DNA of 44,400 bases from a bacterium (GTDB lineage: Bacteria > Pseudomonadota > Gammaproteobacteria > Burkholderiales > Burkholderiaceae_C): positions 1 to 44,400 of the forward strand of contig JAVBXK010000045.1 of assembly GCA_030824555.1 (NCBI GenBank), given 5' to 3'. This document shows, piece after piece, positions 18,966 through 43,324 of this stretch (position 1 is the stretch's first letter; each line of letters opens with the position of its first letter). The translations under genes and the position numbers were made by a program. The notes under the pieces are model-generated. The model had not been told where the DNA came from, did not search any database, and saw only the letters and a program-made list of their open reading frames with translations.

Positions 18966-20291
18966 TCAGCCAGGTTGGCCGTCTGACCGGGGCTGTCCGT
19001 ACCACCTGGCCAGCCTGCTCCCCCATGCCAGCATGACCACCAGCCAGCACAGGGCCGCAGCCAGCGTCAACCAGCCCGTGGTGTGCTCCACCGCCGATGC
19101 GATGCGCAGCAGTGTGGCCACCTGCAGCAGGCCGAACAACGTCCACACCAGGTTGTCTGCCACCAGCGAGCGGCCACTGTGACCACACGACACCCGGGTG
19201 ACCATGGCCAGCAGCACCGAGCCTAAAAAGCCCATGGTGAGCGCGTGCAAGGCCCCCAACCCCAGCAGCGGCACGCCCTGGCGCAGCCCCAGCAATTGCG
19301 ACGCACCCGACAGCACCAGCGCCAGGCCAAACCAGGTGAAGCCCACGTGCAGCATGGCCAGCAGCCTGACCGTCAGGCTTTGCACCAAGCCCCACGTCAG
19401 GGCCAGCCACAGCACGACGCTGCCTGCGGCCAGTTCGAGCAGTCCCAACGCCAGCATCCCCGCGCGTGGGGTGCGTGCACCTTGCCAGCCTTCGGGTGCC
19501 AGCATCAAGGGGGCCCAGGTGGCCAGTGCCTCCATGGCCGCCAGTCCCACCAGAAACCACAACACCCATCGGGGGCGCCAGGGTGCAATCGTGGGCAATG
19601 CACTCGCCGTGAAAAACGGCAGCATGCGGTGTGCCACCACCAGGAACGTGACCACCACGCAACCCCACAGCCCACTGCGAATGGTCAGCAAGGCCAGATC
19701 GGTCTGGCCTTGCCACAGCGCGGCCTGCGTGCCCAGCAGCGCGCCCACGCCCACGCCACCGGCCACACCGGCCACCTGTGCGTGCAGCCGGTCGGCCACC
19801 GGGCTGCGGTGCACCAGTTGCCAGAACCGCACGTACATGGCCAGCAGGCCCAGGGTCGTCAGCACCATGCCCACCCATGCCAGCCACTCCAGACACGCTG
19901 CACCCGCCAGCCACAGCACCCAGCCGGTGCATTGCAACCCCAATGGCAGCACCAGCTGCCGGGCCTCGGGTGTCGCCACGCCCAGCCATTTGGGTGCGGC
20001 TGTGAACAAAAACCCCGCGAAGAACAGTGGGAAAAATCCCAGGCTCATCACGGCTGCGTGCGTGACCGTGGGTGACACCGCCAAGGGCATGGACAGCCCC
20101 CAAGGCTGCCTGCCCAACTGGACCAGCAACCACCAGGCGCTGCTGGCTGCCAGCAGCAGCACCGCCAGAAAGAATGCCAGGCGGTGCGGTGCCTGCATCA
20201 GCAGGCCCGGCGACCACCTTGCCGCTGCACGCAACCCACCGCGTGCAGCGATGGGCAGCACGTCGTGGCCGGGCAGGGGGGTGAGTGTCAC
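18966..20291 (-). CDS. nnrS: NnrS, multi-spanning haem/copper membrane protein
   Basis: A 441-residue protein with about twelve transmembrane helices. Family features include the N-terminal QAPHRLAFFLAVLLL, the HAAVMSLGFFPLFFAGFLFTAAPKWL region, HRMLPFFTASALP, and HALTMGFLGSVLLAMVTRVSCGHSGR. NnrS lowers nitrosative stress and is regulated with denitrification genes. The GTG at 20291 overlaps the stop of a 33-codon upstream ORF (GTGA). An extended frame to 20420 is judged untranslated. It is first large gene of the minus-strand group and divergent from ccmA. Confidence 0.9.
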   Translation of the reverse strand: MTLTPLPGHDVLPIAARGGLRAAARWSPGLLMQAPHRLAFFLAVLLLAASSAWWLLVQLGRQPWGLSMPLAVSPTVTHAAVMSLGFFPLFFAGFLFTAAPKWLGVATPEARQLVLPLGLQCTGWVLWLAGAACLEWLAWVGMVLTTLGLLAMYVRFWQLVHRSPVADRLHAQVAGVAGGVGVGALLGTQAALWQGQTDLALLTIRSGLWGCVVVTFLVVAHRMLPFFTASALPTIAPWRPRWVLWFLVGLAAMEALATWAPLMLAPEGWQGARTPRAGMLALGLLELAAGSVVLWLALTWGLVQSLTVRLLAMLHVGFTWFGLALVLSGASQLLGLRQGVPLLGLGALHALTMGFLGSVLLAMVTRVSCGHSGRSLVADNLVWTLFGLLQVATLLRIASAVEHTTGWLTLAAALCWLVVMLAWGSRLARWYGQPRSDGQPG

Positions 20292-20389
20292 GTGCCGCTC
20301 AGGCCGATGGGGCCAGCCACGGGCCGCCGCCACATGCCGAACGAGCCGATCAACCGGCTTCCGATGCGCGGGTTGTTCATCCAGTTCAT
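20288..20389 (-). CDS. 33-residue ORF coupled to nnrS
   Basis: The ORF MNWMNNPRIGSRLIGSFG... has a strong Shine-Dalgarno (AAGGAAA, 7 bases before the ATG), and its TGA overlaps the nnrS GTG start as GTGA. nnrS itself has no good ribosome binding site, so this ORF probably delivers ribosomes to it. It has no recognisable family and no obvious transmembrane helix. It could be a leader peptide or a real small protein. Confidence 0.55.
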   Translation of the reverse strand: MNWMNNPRIGSRLIGSFGMWRRPVAGPIGLSGT

Positions 20390-20480
20390 GTTGTTTCCTT
20401 GTGTCCGGGTGCCGCGCCAAGTGCCGTGGGCGGAGGCAGGAGGGGTATCAGGCCACTCAAGTCTAGGTGGCAGGGGGTGT

Positions 20481-20498
20481 TTCAGAGGGGGTTCTGAA
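20481..20498. promoter_or_regulatory. Palindrome in the nnrS/ccmA divergent region
   Basis: TTCAGA-(GGGGGT)-TCTGAA, perfect 6-base arms, about 90 bp upstream of the small ORF before nnrS and 150 bp before ccmA. The 20390-20648 gap holds no other convincing gene. The binder is unknown. Confidence 0.3.
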
Positions 20499-20648
20499 GA
20501 GCTACCGGCGGTATCCGATGGGAGGATGCCGGGGCGGCGCTTCACTCTGGAGCGCATGAATGACCCGGCCCGGCTGCTGCTGACGGGGCGTTTTCAGTGG
20601 GGTGCCCATGGGAGAATCCATTCCTTTTTTGGGTTGCCCGTGCCGAAT

Positions 20649-21275
20649 GTGTCGTCTGAACAGCCGAAACGCGTTGCCTGCCTGGCTTGGCGGCGCATCG
20701 TGGGTGCACGCAACCAGACCCGGCTGTGGGGGCCGCTGACGGGCGAGGCGGTGGCAGGCCAGGCTATCCACGTGGCCGGTGCCAACGGGTGTGGCAAATC
20801 GACCTTCCTGAAGGCCCTGGCGGGGCTGCACACGCCCGTGGCCGGCGCTGTGGAGCGCACACCCGCCGAAACGTTGCTGATTGGGCACGAATTGCCGTTG
20901 TCCCCCGACCTCGATGCCCTGGCCAACCTGAGCCTGTGGCTGGCGCTGGTGAGCCGTTCCCCCGTGCCGCGCGAACATTGTGTGGCCGCATTGAGCGCCG
21001 CAGCGGTGCCCATAGGGCGGGCGGTGCGCCTGCTGTCTGCTGGCCAAAGGCGCAAGGTGGCACTGTGTGTGTTGCCGCTGGCCGACCGCCTGGTGTGGCT
21101 GCTGGACGAGCCGCTGGACGCGCTGGACAGCCAGGCCGCGTTCTGGCTGGCCGACCTGTGTAACCGGCACCTGCAACGCGGTGGGAGCATCGTCTACACC
21201 TCGCACCAGCGTGGACCCGAGCAATTTCCCCGACATCAAGTGCTGGCGCTGTCGGGTGATGGGGTGCGTGCGTGA
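20649..21275 (+). CDS. ccmA: CcmA, ATP-binding subunit of haem exporter
   Basis: A 208-residue ABC ATPase. It has Walker A GANGCGKST, signature LLSAGQRRKVAL, and Walker B LVWLLDEPLDALD followed by the switch histidine in YTSHQ. CcmA powers the CcmABCD complex that releases holo-CcmE. The frame is open further upstream (ATG at 20556), but family length and alignment favour a start near GTG 20649, with no clear Shine-Dalgarno. Its TGA lies inside GTGAGC, where the first repeat unit begins, so ccmA and ccmB are now separated by 127 bp rather than overlapping. Confidence 0.88.
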   Translation: MSSEQPKRVACLAWRRIVGARNQTRLWGPLTGEAVAGQAIHVAGANGCGKSTFLKALAGLHTPVAGAVERTPAETLLIGHELPLSPDLDALANLSLWLALVSRSPVPREHCVAALSAAAVPIGRAVRLLSAGQRRKVALCVLPLADRLVWLLDEPLDALDSQAAFWLADLCNRHLQRGGSIVYTSHQRGPEQFPRHQVLALSGDGVRA

Positions 21276-21337
21276 GCGCCGCCCGGCCGTTCCGAAGGCG
21301 CTCAGCCCCGCAGTGCGCAGCACGGAGGGTAAGCCCA
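21272..21337 (+). repeat. Repeat A, copy 1 (ccmA/ccmB)
   Basis: A 66-bp unit starting at the GTGAGC that holds the ccmA stop. It folds as TGAGCGCC-(16)-GGCGCTCA, then GTGC-GCA-GCAC, followed by GGAGGG and, 8 bases on, an ATG (21338) that starts copy 2. It is nearly identical to copies 2 and 3. Confidence 0.85.
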
Positions 21338-21402
21338 ATGAGCGCCGCCCGGCCGTTCCGAAGGCGCTCAGCCCCGCAGTGCGCAGCACGGAGGGCAGCC
21401 CC
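21338..21402 (+). repeat. Repeat A, copy 2 (ccmA/ccmB)
   Basis: A 65-bp direct tandem copy, differing from copy 1 only at its ends. Its GGAGGG lies 8 bases before the GTG at 21403, so it supplies the ccmB ribosome binding site. Confidence 0.85.
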
Positions 21403-22107
21403 GTGAGCAACGTGGTCTCAGCAGCTGAACGCCCCTGGTGGCCCGCCGTGCGGGGCATGGCGGTGCGCGAGTGGCTGGCTGCCTGGCAGCGCCCGGGTGA
21501 CCTGGCGCTGTACGCCGTGTTTTTTTTGATCGTGAGCAGCCTGTTCCCGCTGTCGCTGGAGGCCAACCCGGCGCTGTTGCGGCAGATCGGCCCCGGCGTG
21601 CTGTGGGTCAGCGTGATCCTGTCGGTGCTGTTGGCCACGGCGCGGCTGTTTCAGGACGATTTGCACAGCGGCTGGCTGGACCAGTGGCTGCTCAGCGGCG
21701 TGCCGCTGGCGCTGCTGATGGCCACGCGCATGGCCGTGCAATGGGTGCTGGTGCTGTGCCCCGTGGCGTTGGTGGCACCGGTGGTGGCCGTGCAGTTCAA
21801 CCTGGGTGGCGCAGCCATCGTCATGCTGATCCAGACACTTGTGCTGGGCACGGCGGTGCTGGTGATGCTGTCGTGCGTGGCCGCCGCACTCAGTGCCGGT
21901 ACACGTGGCGGCACCATGCTGGCGGTGCTGTTGGTGCTGCCGCTGTCGGTGCCGACGCTGGTGTTCAGTTCACTGGCGGTGCAGGCCGTCGAGCGCGGTA
22001 CGCCAGCCGATGCCGAGCTGGCGTTGTTGGGGGCCATTTGTTTGTTTTCAGGCATCGTCTGCCCGTGGGTGGGTGGACTGGCCATTGGCGCTGCGGTGGA
22101 CGGTTGA
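21403..22107 (+). CDS. ccmB: CcmB, haem exporter membrane subunit
   Basis: A 234-residue integral membrane protein with six hydrophobic segments. Family sequences are PGDLALYAVFFLIVSSLFPL, LFQDDLHSGWLDQWLLS, and LPLSVPTLVFSSLAVQAV. It forms the exporter with CcmA and CcmC. The GTG at 21403 is served by GGAGGG of repeat A copy 2; the frame stays open back through both repeats, so an N-terminal extension cannot be excluded, and an ATG at 21457 is another alternative. After its TGA come two repeat B units. Confidence 0.9.
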   Translation: MSNVVSAAERPWWPAVRGMAVREWLAAWQRPGDLALYAVFFLIVSSLFPLSLEANPALLRQIGPGVLWVSVILSVLLATARLFQDDLHSGWLDQWLLSGVPLALLMATRMAVQWVLVLCPVALVAPVVAVQFNLGGAAIVMLIQTLVLGTAVLVMLSCVAAALSAGTRGGTMLAVLLVLPLSVPTLVFSSLAVQAVERGTPADAELALLGAICLFSGIVCPWVGGLAIGAAVDG

Positions 22108-22108
22108 C

Positions 22109-22186
22109 ATGAGCCCCCACGCTTACTTCGTTCGCTGCCCCCCGAGGGGGCTGCCAATACCTTCGGAGCGGCCGGGCGGTACTGGC
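22109..22186 (+). repeat. Repeat B, copy 1 (ccmB/ccmC)
   Basis: A 78-bp unit beginning with ATG right after the ccmB TGA. It contains GCCCCC-CGA-GGGGGC and the block CCTTCGGAGCGGCCGGGCGG, which is the reverse complement of the core of repeat A (one base differs). It ends at the ATG of copy 2. Confidence 0.85.
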
Positions 22187-22265
22187 ATGGCACCCCCACG
22201 CTCACTTCATTCGCTGCCCCCCAGGGGGGCGGTCAATCCCTTCGGAACGGCCGGGCGGTACTGAC
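22187..22265 (+). repeat. Repeat B, copy 2 (ccmB/ccmC)
   Basis: A 79-bp tandem copy of the preceding unit, with the same C-run/G-run hairpin and CCTTCGGAACGGCCGGGCGG. It ends TACTGAC exactly at the ccmC ATG (22266). Confidence 0.85.
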
Positions 22266-23021
22266 ATGTCACATTGGCAACGTTATGTGTTTTGGTTTGC
22301 CAGCCCGGCGCGTGCGCACGTGCTGGCGCAACGGCTGTCGGCGCCCTTGATGTGGTTGGCTGCTGCACTGTTGCTGCCGGGCCTGTGGCTGGGCTTTGTC
22401 AGCACGCCCGCCGACGCGGTGCAGGGCGAGGGCTACCGCATCATTTACCTGCACGTGCCCGCATCGTGGATGGCCATGTTCAGCTACGCGCTGATGGCGG
22501 TGTGGCATGCCACCGGGCTGATCTGGAACACGCGTGTCTCGCACCTCATGGCACACGCACTGGCCCCCACCGGCGCGGTCTTTGCGTTGCTGAGCCTGGT
22601 GACCGGTGCGCTGTGGGGCCAGCCCATGTGGGGCACCTGGTGGGTGTGGGATGCTCGGTTGACGTCGTCGCTGCTGTTGCTGTTTTTGTACATCGGCTAC
22701 CTGTTTTTGCTGCATGCCTACGACACGACAACCCGTGCCGACAAAGGTTGTGCGCTGCTGTGTCTGCTGAGCGTGGTGAACTTGCCCATCATCTATTTCT
22801 CGGTGCGGTGGTGGAACACGCTGCACCAGGGGGCCACCATCCGGGCAGAAGGTGCTTCGATGGCTGCGCCCATGCTGGCTGCGTTGCTGTTGATGACGCT
22901 GGCCGCCTGGGCCTACACCGCCAGCACGGCACTGCGCCGGTTCCGGCAGTTGCTGCAGGAGCGCGAGGCGCACACCCAATGGCTGGGCGATCTGACGAAC
23001 GGGGAGTCGCGTGTTGACTGA
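22266..23021 (+). CDS. ccmC: CcmC, haem-handling membrane protein
   Basis: A 251-residue protein with six membrane helices. It carries the tryptophan-rich haem-binding motif WGTWWVWDARLTSS (122-135) and the flanking periplasmic histidines in YLHVPASWM and WNTLHQG. CcmC loads haem onto CcmE. Its ATG directly follows repeat B and no clear Shine-Dalgarno is visible. ccmD starts 11 bases before its stop. Confidence 0.95.
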   Translation: MSHWQRYVFWFASPARAHVLAQRLSAPLMWLAAALLLPGLWLGFVSTPADAVQGEGYRIIYLHVPASWMAMFSYALMAVWHATGLIWNTRVSHLMAHALAPTGAVFALLSLVTGALWGQPMWGTWWVWDARLTSSLLLLFLYIGYLFLLHAYDTTTRADKGCALLCLLSVVNLPIIYFSVRWWNTLHQGATIRAEGASMAAPMLAALLLMTLAAWAYTASTALRRFRQLLQEREAHTQWLGDLTNGESRVD

Positions 23022-39314: not shown

Positions 39315-40805
39315 TTGAACCCGCCTGACCACACGTTGCAAGCTTTGAAAGCCCGTTACGGCGAGTCGTACCGATGGCTGCTGTTGCTCTCTGTCATGGT
39401 GGGCACCATGGCATCGATCATGTCGTCCACCATCATCAACGTGGCCATTCCCGACCTGAGCCAGCACTTCGGTCTGGGGCAAGAGCGCGCACAGTGGGCC
39501 ACGTCGAGCTTCATGGCCGCCATGACGGTCTCCATGCTGACCACGCCCTGGCTGCTGGCGCGCTACGGCTACCGGCGCACCTATTCGGGCTGCATGTGGC
39601 TGTTGCTGGTGGGGGGTGTCGGGGGCGGCTTCTCGGGCGACTACGGGCTGGTGCTGCTGGCCCGTGTGCTGGAAGGGCTGGCTGCGGGCGTGACGCAGCC
39701 TATCCCGGCCATCATCATCCTGCGTGCGTTCGAACCGCACGAACAGGGCCGCGCCAGTGGGTTCTTCGGCATGGGCGTGGTGCTGGCCCCGGCCATTGGC
39801 CCCAGCATCGGCGGGTTGCTGGTGGACGCGTTCGGCTGGCGCTCCATCTTCTTCATGGTGGTGCCGTTTTGTCTCGTGTCGCTGTGGCTGGCGCGGCGTT
39901 ATGTGCCGGTCACCGCGCCCGGCGGTGCGGCCGCCAGCGCCGAGGGCGGCGGGCTCGACTGGCGTGGCCTGCTGCTGGCCACGGCGGGTACCTTGTGCCT
40001 GCTCAATGGTCTGGTGCAGTCTCAAACCGGTTCGACGCTGTGGGCCACATTGCTGCTGGGGGCTGCCGGATTGTCAGCTGCCGGTTTCGTGTGGTTGCAG
40101 CGCCACATGCTGACGCGTGCGCACAGCCGCCCGCAGGCGGGGGCGCAGCCGCTCATGAACCTGTCGCTGTTTGCCGACCGGCGGTTTGCCATGGGCAGCC
40201 TGGTGGCCATCATTTACGGCACGGCGCTGTTCGGTTCCACCTATTTGTTGCCGGTGTACTTGCAAATGGGGTTGGGGCTCTCCCCCTCGTTTGTGGGGGC
40301 CATTTTGTTGCCTGCTGGTTTGCTGCTGGCTGTCACCATTGCTGTGGTCGGCCGCCTGGCTGACCGGCAACCGGCCTACCGGCTGGTGTCGGTGGGGCTG
40401 GTGCTGCTGGCCGCGTCGTTTGCGTTGATGCTCACGCTGCGCGGGCCGGGTGCGCCGTGGGCGGTGCCCATGCTGATTGCCTGGACGGTGCTGGGGCGCA
40501 TTGGCCTGGGTTTCATCTTGCCGTCGCTGAACCTTGGGGCCATGCGCAGCCTGCCGCGACACCACATTCCCCAGGGGGCCAGCGTCATCAATTTTTTACG
40601 CATGCTGGGCGGCGCTGCAGGTGTCAGCGTGTGTGGCATCGTGCTGGAGTGGCGGCTGCTCGCACACGGCGCAAACCTGCTGCCGGGCGGCGATGCATCG
40701 GCCAAACTGGCGGCGTTTGACGACACCTTCCTCATGCTGGCCGTGCTGTGTGCCTTGGCGCTGGTGGCGGCCTGGCGCATGCGCGACGCGGATGAGGGGA
40801 GCTGA
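39315..40805 (+). CDS. MFS drug:H+ antiporter, DHA2 (EmrB/QacA) type
   Basis: A 496-residue membrane protein with about 14 helices. Motif A-like LLARYGYRRTYSG and the DHA2 motif GRASGFFGMGVVLAPAIGPSIGG are present, followed by WRSIFFMVVPF. It probably exports hydrophobic compounds by proton antiport, but no EmrA partner is beside it. The start is uncertain: TTG 39315 is used because no ATG precedes the first helix; TTG 39336 is an alternative. It is followed by 3 bp and then repeat A copy 3. Confidence 0.88.
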   Translation: MNPPDHTLQALKARYGESYRWLLLLSVMVGTMASIMSSTIINVAIPDLSQHFGLGQERAQWATSSFMAAMTVSMLTTPWLLARYGYRRTYSGCMWLLLVGGVGGGFSGDYGLVLLARVLEGLAAGVTQPIPAIIILRAFEPHEQGRASGFFGMGVVLAPAIGPSIGGLLVDAFGWRSIFFMVVPFCLVSLWLARRYVPVTAPGGAAASAEGGGLDWRGLLLATAGTLCLLNGLVQSQTGSTLWATLLLGAAGLSAAGFVWLQRHMLTRAHSRPQAGAQPLMNLSLFADRRFAMGSLVAIIYGTALFGSTYLLPVYLQMGLGLSPSFVGAILLPAGLLLAVTIAVVGRLADRQPAYRLVSVGLVLLAASFALMLTLRGPGAPWAVPMLIAWTVLGRIGLGFILPSLNLGAMRSLPRHHIPQGASVINFLRMLGGAAGVSVCGIVLEWRLLAHGANLLPGGDASAKLAAFDDTFLMLAVLCALALVAAWRMRDADEGS

Positions 40806-40808
40806 CGC

Positions 40809-40873
40809 ATGAGCGCCGCCCGGCCGCTCCGAAGGCGCTCAGCCTCGCAGTGCACATCACGGAGGGCAGCCCA
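40809..40873 (+). repeat. Repeat A, copy 3
   Basis: A 65-bp copy differing from copy 2 at five positions. It begins with ATGAGC 4 bases after the MFS stop. The TGAGCGCC/GGCGCTCA stem is intact, and GGAGGG lies 8 bases before the GTG (40874) of the next gene. Confidence 0.88.
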
Positions 40874-43324
40874 GTGAGTGCCAAACACCTCTACGCGTTC
40901 CTGCAGCCTGCATCGGTAGCGGTCATCGGTGCCAGCTCCCGGGCCGACTCCCTGGGCAGCTGGGCGTGGCGCAACCTGGTGTCTGCCGGGTTCGAGGGGC
41001 AACTGCTGCCCGTTAACCTGAAGCACCACACCACGCTGGATGGCCACCGTGTGTACAAACGCGTGGCCGACCTGCCGGTGGTGCCCGACCTGGCACTGGT
41101 GTGCACCCCCGCAGCCACGGTCAGCCGGGTGATCGGTGAGCTGGGTGACCGGGGCACACGCGCGGCCGTGGTGCTGACCGACGGCCTGTCGCCCGCCCAG
41201 ACGGTCGCCATGTTGAAAGCGGCACGCCGCCACACGTTGCGCATCGTGGGCGACCACGCGCTGGGCGTGCAGGTGCCAGGCCTGCGCCTGAATGCGGGTG
41301 TGGCCCCCACGATGCCAGCCGAAGGACAGCTGGCGCTGGTATCGCAATGCGGCGGGGTGACGGCCTCCATGCTCGACTGGGCGCAGGCGCACGGCATCGG
41401 GTTTTCAGCTGTGGTGTCACTGGGCCGCAGCGCCGATGCCGACGCGGCTGACTGGCTCGACCACCTGGGCGGTGACCACCGCACCCGCGCCATCCTGCTG
41501 TACCTGGATGCCGTGCACAGCCCGGCCAAATTCATGTCCGCTGCCAGGGCGGCGGCGCGCAACAAGCCGGTGATCGTGGTCAAAGCCGGTGCCAGGGCAT
41601 GGGCGCACAACAGTGACGCGCCAGATACCGAGCTGCCCCCGTTTGCCGTGGCACCCGATGCGGTGTTCGATGCCGCAGTGGCCCGTGCCGGGTTGCTGCG
41701 CGTGGGCAGCCTGCAAGACCTGTTTCTGGCGGCCCAGGTGCTGGCGCGCTTCCGCGATGGGGGTTCCGGCCCATTGGTGATCCTGGCCAATGGCGGCACC
41801 GGCGCGCTGGCAGCTGACGCTGCCCTGGCCCTGGGCGTGCCCATGGCCACCCTGCTGCCCGACACCTGTGCAGCGCTGGGCCGGTTGCTGGTCGTGCCTG
41901 CTTCCAGCGTGGCCAATCCCGTGCGCGTGCCCCGTGAAGCCCCTGCCCAGGTGTATGCCGAGGCGGCGCAGCTGCTGTGCCAGGACCCGGCGCACGTGCT
42001 GCTGGTGGCCCACGCGCCCACCGTGGCCGTGCAGGCCGAGCAGGTGGCGCAGGCTTTGCTGCCGGTGGCCACGCGGCTGCCCCACCGTGTCATGGCCGCC
42101 TGGTTGGGCGGTGGCAGCCACCGGGCTGCGGCACGCGTGTTCGACGAGGCCGGTTTGCCCACGTACGACACACCCGAACAGGCCGTGCAGGCGCTGGCGC
42201 TGCTGCGCACCCACGCGCAACACCAGCTTGAACTGATGCAGACACCGCCCGCGAGGCTGGCCAGCGTGCCGTCCGATGTGGATGGCCTCCACACCCTGGC
42301 CCACGCCGCCATGGCCGGGCGGCCCGCGAACCTGACAGGCGACGCCGCGCTGCAGCTGCTGGCGCGTGCAGGTGTGCCGGTGCGCGGTGCGCAGACGGGT
42401 GAGGCCGCTCACGTGCCGGGCACCCGCTGGCGCATCACCTTCGGGGTCGACCTGACGTTCGGGCCGGTCATCGGACTGGGCACGTCGGGTTTGCCTGCCA
42501 CCCTGTCGCGCCATGCGGTGGCGTTGCCGCCCTTGAACGTGCCGCTGGCGCACGCCCTGATGACCCGCGCGGGCGTGAGCCTGGGGCCCGACGCTTCGGC
42601 AACGCCAGGTGCAGACGCACCTGCGCACGGCCTGGCCGACCTGCTGCTCAGCTGCTCGCAGCTGATGGTCGACCTGCCTATGCTGGCCGCAGGCCAGATC
42701 ACTTGCGTGCAAGACCACTGGACGGTGGTCGATGCCTCGTTGCAACTGCACCCCGCATGCCCGATGGGGGCTGACCGGTTCGTGATCCAACCCTACCCGC
42801 AGCACCTGGTCGAAACGCTGCTCTGGCAGGGGCAGCTCCTCACGGTGCGTCCCATCCGGCCGGAGGACGAGGCGCAGCACCTGGCATTCCTGGGCAAGCT
42901 GACGCCAGAGGACATCCGCATGCGGATATTCCATGTGCGGCGCAGCATCGAGCACAGCGAGATGGCACGGCTGACGCAGATCGACTACGCCCGCGAAATG
43001 GCCTTCATCGCCACGCGCGTCAACGCCGAAACCGGGCGCGAAGAAACACTGGCAACGGTGCGCGCCACCATCGACGCTGACAACGACGTGGCCGAGTTCG
43101 GGGTCATCGTCCGCTCCGACATCAAAGCCGGGCGGCTGGGGCGTTTGCTGATGACCCGGCTCATTGCCTACCTGGCTGCACGCGGCACACGCCAGCTCAC
43201 GGGCACGGTCCTGACCGCCAACACACGCATGCTGGCGCTGGCGCGCTCGCTGGGTTTTGTCGAGTCCGACAACCCCGACGACCCCACCGACCGCGCCGTG
43301 CGGTTCGTGTCGCTGGACCTCTGA
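40874..43324 (+). CDS. Acyl-CoA synthetase (NDP-forming)-like/GNAT fusion, Pat/YfiQ type
   Basis: An 816-residue protein. The CoA-binding Rossmann domain (~5-125: PASVAVIGASSRADSLGSW) is followed by succinyl-CoA-ligase-like domains (~145-450) and a degenerate ATP-grasp-like part. A C-terminal GNAT acetyltransferase domain (~650-810) includes VIVRSDIKAGRLGRLLM, the acetyl-CoA loop. It resembles the Pat/YfiQ lysine acetyltransferases that inactivate acetyl-CoA synthetase. The ligase part is probably regulatory. The GTG start at 40874 is set by repeat A's Shine-Dalgarno. Confidence 0.85.
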   Translation: MSAKHLYAFLQPASVAVIGASSRADSLGSWAWRNLVSAGFEGQLLPVNLKHHTTLDGHRVYKRVADLPVVPDLALVCTPAATVSRVIGELGDRGTRAAVVLTDGLSPAQTVAMLKAARRHTLRIVGDHALGVQVPGLRLNAGVAPTMPAEGQLALVSQCGGVTASMLDWAQAHGIGFSAVVSLGRSADADAADWLDHLGGDHRTRAILLYLDAVHSPAKFMSAARAAARNKPVIVVKAGARAWAHNSDAPDTELPPFAVAPDAVFDAAVARAGLLRVGSLQDLFLAAQVLARFRDGGSGPLVILANGGTGALAADAALALGVPMATLLPDTCAALGRLLVVPASSVANPVRVPREAPAQVYAEAAQLLCQDPAHVLLVAHAPTVAVQAEQVAQALLPVATRLPHRVMAAWLGGGSHRAAARVFDEAGLPTYDTPEQAVQALALLRTHAQHQLELMQTPPARLASVPSDVDGLHTLAHAAMAGRPANLTGDAALQLLARAGVPVRGAQTGEAAHVPGTRWRITFGVDLTFGPVIGLGTSGLPATLSRHAVALPPLNVPLAHALMTRAGVSLGPDASATPGADAPAHGLADLLLSCSQLMVDLPMLAAGQITCVQDHWTVVDASLQLHPACPMGADRFVIQPYPQHLVETLLWQGQLLTVRPIRPEDEAQHLAFLGKLTPEDIRMRIFHVRRSIEHSEMARLTQIDYAREMAFIATRVNAETGREETLATVRATIDADNDVAEFGVIVRSDIKAGRLGRLLMTRLIAYLAARGTRQLTGTVLTANTRMLALARSLGFVESDNPDDPTDRAVRFVSLDL

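Follow-up and report, generated by a model that had tools for sequence, protein, structure and literature searches.

The 44,400-nucleotide stretch of DNA analysed here (the window; positions 1 to 44,400 of the forward strand of contig JAVBXK010000045.1, assembly GCA_030824555.1, from a bacterium of the Burkholderiaceae_C) carries two head-to-tail copies of a short repeat, family A, between the genes ccmA and ccmB. Our analysis suggests, with a probability of roughly 80%, that the repeat is a small mobile element, non-autonomous, which enters immediately 3' of the (A/G)TGA at a start codon and brings with it a new Shine-Dalgarno (SD) sequence and a new start codon. It appears to be a small mobile repeat that is remarkable for where it lands and for what it seems to rebuild there. 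A preliminary description of this DNA was right in its observation, and its interpretation largely holds in the light of where other copies end and of orthologous junctions that are bare.

The two units, of 66 bp (21272 to 21337, forward strand; GTGAGC...AAGCCCA) and 65 bp (21338 to 21402, forward strand; ATGAGC...CAGCCCC), are present as first described. The open reading frame (ORF) that contains the ABC ATPase gene ccmA (20184 to 21275, forward strand; its true start is internal to the ORF) stops at the TGA at 21273-21275, inside the GTGA that opens the first unit at 21272, and the 3' end of the second unit abuts the GTG at 21403, the likely start of ccmB (21403 to 22107, forward strand; Pfam CcmB, 1.8e-41). 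The names ccmA and, further downstream, ccmC are assigned by position and domain, Pfam identifying an ABC ATPase upstream of ccmB and, at the position of ccmC, a cytochrome c assembly protein. Both units contain an SD-like GGAGGG (21324 to 21329 and 21390 to 21395, forward strand), so that the second does place such a motif ahead of the ccmB GTG. The spacing of 8 bases that had been given for both is found in the first unit (8 nt upstream of ATG21338), but it is 7 nt in the second.

The unit inserts precisely, and it has entered one and the same junction several times independently. This is best seen at mutY, which was found in 66 of 67 genomes searched in Hydrogenophaga, the genus of genome G213; 64 mutY junctions were read, a partial match (G472) and a weak one (G483) being left out. 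Seven of them are filled (L271, L275, L285, L288, L289, L328 and L331), and in all seven the unit begins directly after the ATGA that closes the upstream gene. Another 55 are empty, and 53 of these read ATGA as a bare overlap, in favour of the preliminary description; the remaining two read TTGA and CTGA. Two loci without a usable upstream match (L323 and L333) are counted neither as filled nor as empty. Apart from 3 nt a few codons into mutY, what distinguishes the filled L271 from its empty close relative L272 (96.5% identity in MutY) is a single insertion of 65 nt behind the ATGA. L331 exceeds the empty L330 in length by exactly 65 nt, and the host CGG that follows ATGA in L330 follows the element's TTGA in L331, which fixes both ends of the insertion. 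From this comparison, the element supplies the GC at its beginning and, at its end, either the whole (N)TGA or the (N) before a TGA that was copied, and the start codon of the filled site arrives with the element. On a tree of MutY, the seven filled rows call for six changes, at least four of them by well-supported branches (the bootstrap is not fully settled), and the site is occupied by different subfamilies, namely A, A2 and tandem A. Copy number also varies at a single junction, with one unit in L100 and two in L163. At rsgA, bare ATGA overlaps can be recognised by eye in two relatives (L190, L201), and L202 carries a unit that has diverged; since divergence at rsgA is high, it is mutY that carries the empty-site argument.

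At ccmA/ccmB itself, the comparison covers the best 29 relatives besides the source genome, taken from the 98 of 249 searched genomes that had a match. None of these 29 has a unit at the junction, and in 20 of them the ccmA stop and the ccmB start overlap in frame as (A/G/T)TGA. The earlier proposal that the repeats entered an ancestral GTGA overlap is thus well supported, and the opposite outcome that it had allowed for, relatives sharing the spacing with unrelated sequence, is not what the 20 bare overlaps look like. The six other genomes of the source genus lack ccmB and so offer no empty site. One relative with a bare ccmA/ccmB overlap, L264, carries at 2173-2240 a diverged unit immediately after ccmB; this unit starts with ATGAGC where the ccmB region ends, terminates in ATACGAGC without a start codon and is followed by another unit-like stretch.

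The unit is dispersed. A search of its own genome with a single unit gives 11 full copies at nine places, with E values from 1.8e-32 (itself) to 7.6e-19, which excludes chance as its source; 13 further weaker or partial matches, several of them to a second repeat (family B, below), are left out of this count. At all nine places the unit spans from one (A/G)TGA to another, at which an ORF or a second unit begins. The junctions include, by Pfam, M48 peptidase/rsgA, sensor kinase/response regulator and one at an SDR gene, as well as a pair that we take to be livG-like/livF-like. The six other genomes of the genus, some of them incomplete, have no unit at E 0.001. Across the family sample, the unit occurs in at least 103 of 399 genomes and at least 55 of 141 genera, the source genus included, these counts being lower bounds as two candidates per genome were scored. 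A phage search gave no match to the unit, and a plasmid search gave one record for unit A. We also scanned an 84,980-species collection with a pattern in which nothing but a 29-nt core of the unit was fixed (the core scan), which gave 77 loci with 83 units, 51 of the loci from records titled Hydrogenophaga. The unit is 65 bp long in 71 of the 76 core-scan units with both ends, and 60 to 66 bp, including 60, 62, 63 and 66, in 22 units of a second sample. Local duplication of a ribosome-binding region, without any mobility, could produce the tandem arrangement, but it is scarcely credible for a unit found at nine places here and in so many genera, with empty orthologous sites beside filled ones.

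Most copies elsewhere end at a start codon or run into another unit, in favour of the preliminary description. Three of the 83 core-scan units have no readable 3' end, two at contig ends (L118 and L146) and one by mutation (L134); of the other 80, 57 lead into an ORF at least 60 codons long and have no further unit behind them, and 17 run into another unit by BLAST. The 60-codon test is weak alone, as 51% of all (A/G)TGA in the same loci pass it, and in this GC-rich DNA such ORFs run from the unit's start frame in 52 of 58 cases and from the frame two bases on in 43 of 58. As ORFs of this length are common in GC-rich DNA, a strict two-sided test was added, in which a 100-codon ORF with a coding score must end in the TGA and another must start at the (A/G)TG. 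It is passed by 27 of 49 solo units, compared with 68 of 6,621 (A/G)TGA sites (1%); with 60 codons on both sides, the figures are 35 of 49 and 836 of 6,621.

On the upstream side, 55 of the 76 units with both ends are preceded by an ORF of 60 or more codons whose stop is the 5' TGA, against a background of 27% of all (A/G)TGA sites that close such an ORF. Eleven have a unit upstream and ten have neither; four of these ten (L113, L122, L139 and L167) read TGATGA, so that the upstream stop may overlap the ATG, and another (L131) has B-like sequence upstream. The preliminary description took stop/start overlaps to be the target. This is right for most sites, but six of the 65 without a unit directly upstream lack a long upstream ORF closing in the 5' TGA, and the common denominator is the start codon.

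The second sample, of 29 family-wide loci, yields 22 parsed copies, 16 at ORF starts and six in tandem; seven loci fall outside the parsing pattern, and by eye five of these (L087, L088, L093, L094 and L098) fit the rule, L075 fits it partly and L092 lies near a contig end. A query of about 30 bases of unit plus flank from G213, which serves as a search with the 5' half, gives 18 matches, of which 15, judged by eye, are complete and have an (A/G)TGA at each end; of the others, L237 is truncated and L238 and L239 were not parsed. Both flanks of one G213 locus, L070, are 100% identical to those of a Hydrogenophaga taeniospiralis record, L127. In the truncated L237 (G213:C3:33662-33696), the 5' half of a unit continues directly into coding-looking sequence, and it is possible that this half-unit now forms the N-terminus of the protein encoded downstream. 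In addition, among six plasmid records examined, the two with annotation at the repeat, from Variovorax SRS16 (an A-like unit) and Variovorax PBL-E5 (a B unit), have an annotated coding sequence that starts exactly at the unit end, which lends some outside support to initiation at the new codon.

Placement of this kind might also arise if a repeat of the REP or BRE type inserted at any (A/G)TGA and survived only at start codons, where initiation is restored. Insertions within genes usually cause a frameshift and would be purged, and BRE repeats are described as mostly intergenic in the sections of PMC3110155 covered. Intergenic targets in the core-scan loci, however, outnumber those at starts: by our own rough codon-usage gene calls, the non-coding (A/G)TGA comprise 493 intergenic, 176 at starts and 112 at stops only, and the non-coding RTGAGC comprise 51, 32 and 14 (46 at starts if the stop-only sites are missed starts). 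The share of non-coding sites at starts expected by chance is accordingly 26-47%, depending on the target and the way of counting, and yet no copy among the 80 is demonstrably intergenic, six fitting neither class. We consider insertion everywhere with survival at starts possible, though rather unlikely.

The sequence around the target bears on the same question. We compared 31 filled junctions (long ORFs on both sides, no following unit) with 67 further (A/G)TGA overlaps from the same loci. Ahead of the original start, the filled junctions have the stronger SDs, with 17 of 31 below -7 kcal/mol compared with 17 of 67 among the others (p 0.003). The new start is also more often followed by AGC, in 18 of 31 compared with 16 of 67 (p 0.0014). 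The SD difference could be due to selection, perhaps because only well translated genes tolerate the strong SD of the unit. The AGC preference is less easily explained in this way and resembles a feature of the DNA, which speaks against a repeat that enters any (A/G)TGA. It is also found that the 3' end of the element, GGAGGG-N7-(A/G)TGA, is the same motif as the putative target, and we infer that insertion is targeted by a DNA motif SD-N7-(A/G)TGA-GC, with the element entering before the GC.

The mechanism that we propose would run as follows. The element would insert in one orientation directly 3' of the (A/G)TGA of a start codon, most commonly one that doubles as the stop of the preceding gene. 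The inserted piece would consist of GC..., a first hairpin whose stem includes the junction TGAGC, a second hairpin, and then GGAGGG-N7-(A/G/T)TGA. The protein of the preceding gene would retain its stop, and the downstream gene would receive the ribosome-binding site and start codon of the element, at which, to judge from the sequence, ribosomes probably initiate. As the new 3' end would again be a target, head-to-tail arrays could accumulate. The TGAGC of the target perhaps pairs with a GCTCA in the hairpin of the element. The unit goes in 3' of a tetranucleotide, leaves no long duplication and has two hairpins, features that suggest a single-strand HUH/Y1 transposase (IS200/IS605- or RAYT-like), probably acting in trans.

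Both hairpins are conserved. The preliminary description gave each unit an 8-bp stem and then a 4-bp stem; the former (TGAGCGCC/GGCGCTCA) appears in both RNA and DNA folds, whereas the latter (GTGC/GCAC) appears in the RNA fold but not in the DNA fold. The fold of a single unit is not unusually stable compared with shuffled sequences (z -0.84 for RNA, -1.91 for DNA). Among 20 diverse units picked by hand, six of the 12 pairs in the two helices vary on both sides (14 cells), a level reached in none of 500 shuffles, and slid structures score far lower. The junction TGA belongs to hairpin 1, whose stem takes in TGAGC.

Two covarying hairpins and a strong SD would also suit a functional RNA regulator maintained by selection at its operon junctions. 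Such a regulator seems unlikely, given the sporadic presence of the unit among relatives (7 of 64 at mutY), its variable copy number and the unrelated genes downstream of it (rsgA, a response regulator, an SDR gene and ccmB by Pfam, others by likeness); there is also no Rfam family at gathering score in the window. We regard as slightly less probable still a translated mini-cistron, in which the 65-bp unit would be a 22-codon ORF that runs from the upstream ATGA to the downstream (A/G)TGA and keeps translational coupling. All 71 core-scan units of 65 bp do keep an open frame between the 5' start and the 3' TGA, but variability is nearly equal across the codon positions (0.041, 0.038 and 0.048), without a coding signature, and copies of 60, 62, 63 and 66 bp would break the relay.

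Several observations weigh against a mobile element with the proposed target and enzyme. The one Y1 transposase gene of the genome has no unit beside it, and 17 Y1 loci in 15 genomes (the source gene included) show no match to A, A2 or B at E 0.01 in flanks of up to 1.5 kb; as no unit lies beside any Y1 locus, mobilisation by a RAYT remains only a lead. Three genomes of the same genus that lack the unit also carry a Y1 transposase gene. No transposase with the ends of the unit, and no autonomous parent, appears among the own-genome matches or the 5'-half matches in G213. The repeated (A/G)TGA could instead be a 3-bp TGA target duplication made by another enzyme, and the start-codon bias, the null for which depends on the rough gene calls mentioned above, could in part be due to selection. 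Six of the 80 readable 3' ends (L099, L112, L119, L140, L155 and L170) lead neither to an ORF nor to a unit, and the unit of L264 departs from the (A/G)TGA end. At mutY, the last unit of L289 ends in ATAG and those of L275 and L328 end in RTGC, so the rule for the last four bases has exceptions. Apart from these points, G004 (L208, L222), a genome of the same genus without unit A, has two strong matches to IS200-type transposases in addition to a weaker RAYT-like one.

A more specific possibility, which we put forward tentatively and at somewhat less than even odds, is that the unit represents a start-codon-homing class, whose machinery takes as its DNA target the ribosome-binding site together with the start codon (GGRGG-N7-(A/G)TGA-GC) and whose 3' end copies that motif. 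Family B would then be a second lineage with the same habit. Two units of this family follow ccmB in the window, one of 78 bp after the ccmB stop (22109 to 22186, forward strand; beginning ATGAGCCCCCACG) and one of 79 bp (22187 to 22265, forward strand) that ends in ...GGTACTGAC and abuts the ccmC ATG at 22266. When 17 B loci of the source genome were scanned with a pattern requiring NTG at the unit end, 10 rows (eight distinct loci) matched, and in seven of the eight this NTG is the ATG that opens an ORF of at least 194 codons. Families A and B share a 20-nt hairpin segment, in reverse orientation only (alignment score 43, compared with a maximum of 36 in 500 shuffles).

If start-codon homing is real, insertion into translated operons would be precise, self-repairing and repeatable, and genes would gain interchangeable initiation regions. 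Promoters, terminators and stop codons are known contributions of mobile repeats; a repeat that replaces both the start codon and the ribosome-binding site would, if the mobile-element interpretation is correct, give operons a separate way of altering their translation. The unit may uncouple overlapping genes without damage to either protein, and before-and-after pairs of the kind seen at mutY would allow the value of overlap and coupling to be measured. The annotation of gene starts would also be affected by such units.

Among known systems, IS200/IS605 elements insert 3' of a fixed tetranucleotide without a long target duplication, and have hairpins towards both ends and an internal complement of the target. 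Unit A is like elements derived from them in its insertion directly 3' of a tetranucleotide without a longer duplication (at all seven filled mutY loci) and in its subterminal hairpins (the two covarying helices), but the data searched yielded no autonomous parent that shares its ends and carries tnpA. We know of no restriction to start codons in the IS200/IS605 group. Nor, to our knowledge, does any of Correia/NEMIS, RUP, BOX, ERIC or bcr1 insert at start codons with an SD of its own. These repeats, named in PMC3110155, are small and have mobile-element traits and effects on their neighbours. The known systems that come closest are the REP/RAYT and BRE repeats. The REP/RAYT system, as far as it is presented in the covered parts of PMC2817692 and PMC3733652, shares with unit A a short hairpin repeat near gene ends and a Y1 transposase gene in the genome, but there the repeats flank the rayt gene, whereas unit A has no match beside the Y1 genes. 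According to the same portion of PMC3733652, GTAG REP termini often give their neighbours a stop codon, while unit A supplies a start. Of the tetranucleotides that head REPs next to the hairpin (GTAG/CGTC type), GTAG occurs in some units (GGGTAGTCC) and is absent from others (GGGTCGTCC, GGGCAGCCC), the conserved one being (A/G)TGA.

The BRE (beta-proteobacterial repeat element; Hot et al. 2011) is, in the sections of PMC3110155 covered, a short GC-rich dispersed repeat of 75-91 bp in Betaproteobacteria, including Comamonadaceae, which forms head-to-tail arrays of varying copy number and of which some copies overlap ORF ends by a few bases. Unit A is likewise short, GC-rich, dispersed and arranged in tandem arrays of varying number; at 60-66 bp, however, family A lies outside that size range, and the sections covered give no start-codon rule, their table including copies between convergent genes (PMC3110155). 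Family B is closer to the BRE in size (78-79 bp), taxa and tandem habit, and may be related to it. Unit A does not resemble a miniature inverted-repeat transposable element of the DDE type: terminal inverted repeats are lacking, and the ends GCGCC... and ...TCCAG are not complementary. Among the papers listed by a full-text literature search, whose coverage leaves out most subscription papers, no title or abstract opening describes such an element.

The window contains a third family A unit of 65 bp, identified by sequence match (40809 to 40873, forward strand). Upstream of it lies a gene that is presumably MFS-like (stop at 40803-40805), and downstream a coenzyme A-binding/ligase gene with its GTG at 40874. 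Two other copies in the source genome are altered. At L028 (G000:C44:7241), a shortened unit, ATGAGCGCAGCACGGAGGGTCGTCCGGTGAGC, retains the SD part and has RTGAGC at both ends. At L019/L020 (G000:C119:11732-11964), the two halves of a unit lie about 157 bp apart, separated by a segment with inverted ends (AGGCTGAGAGTTTTT) that is apparently a nested small mobile element.
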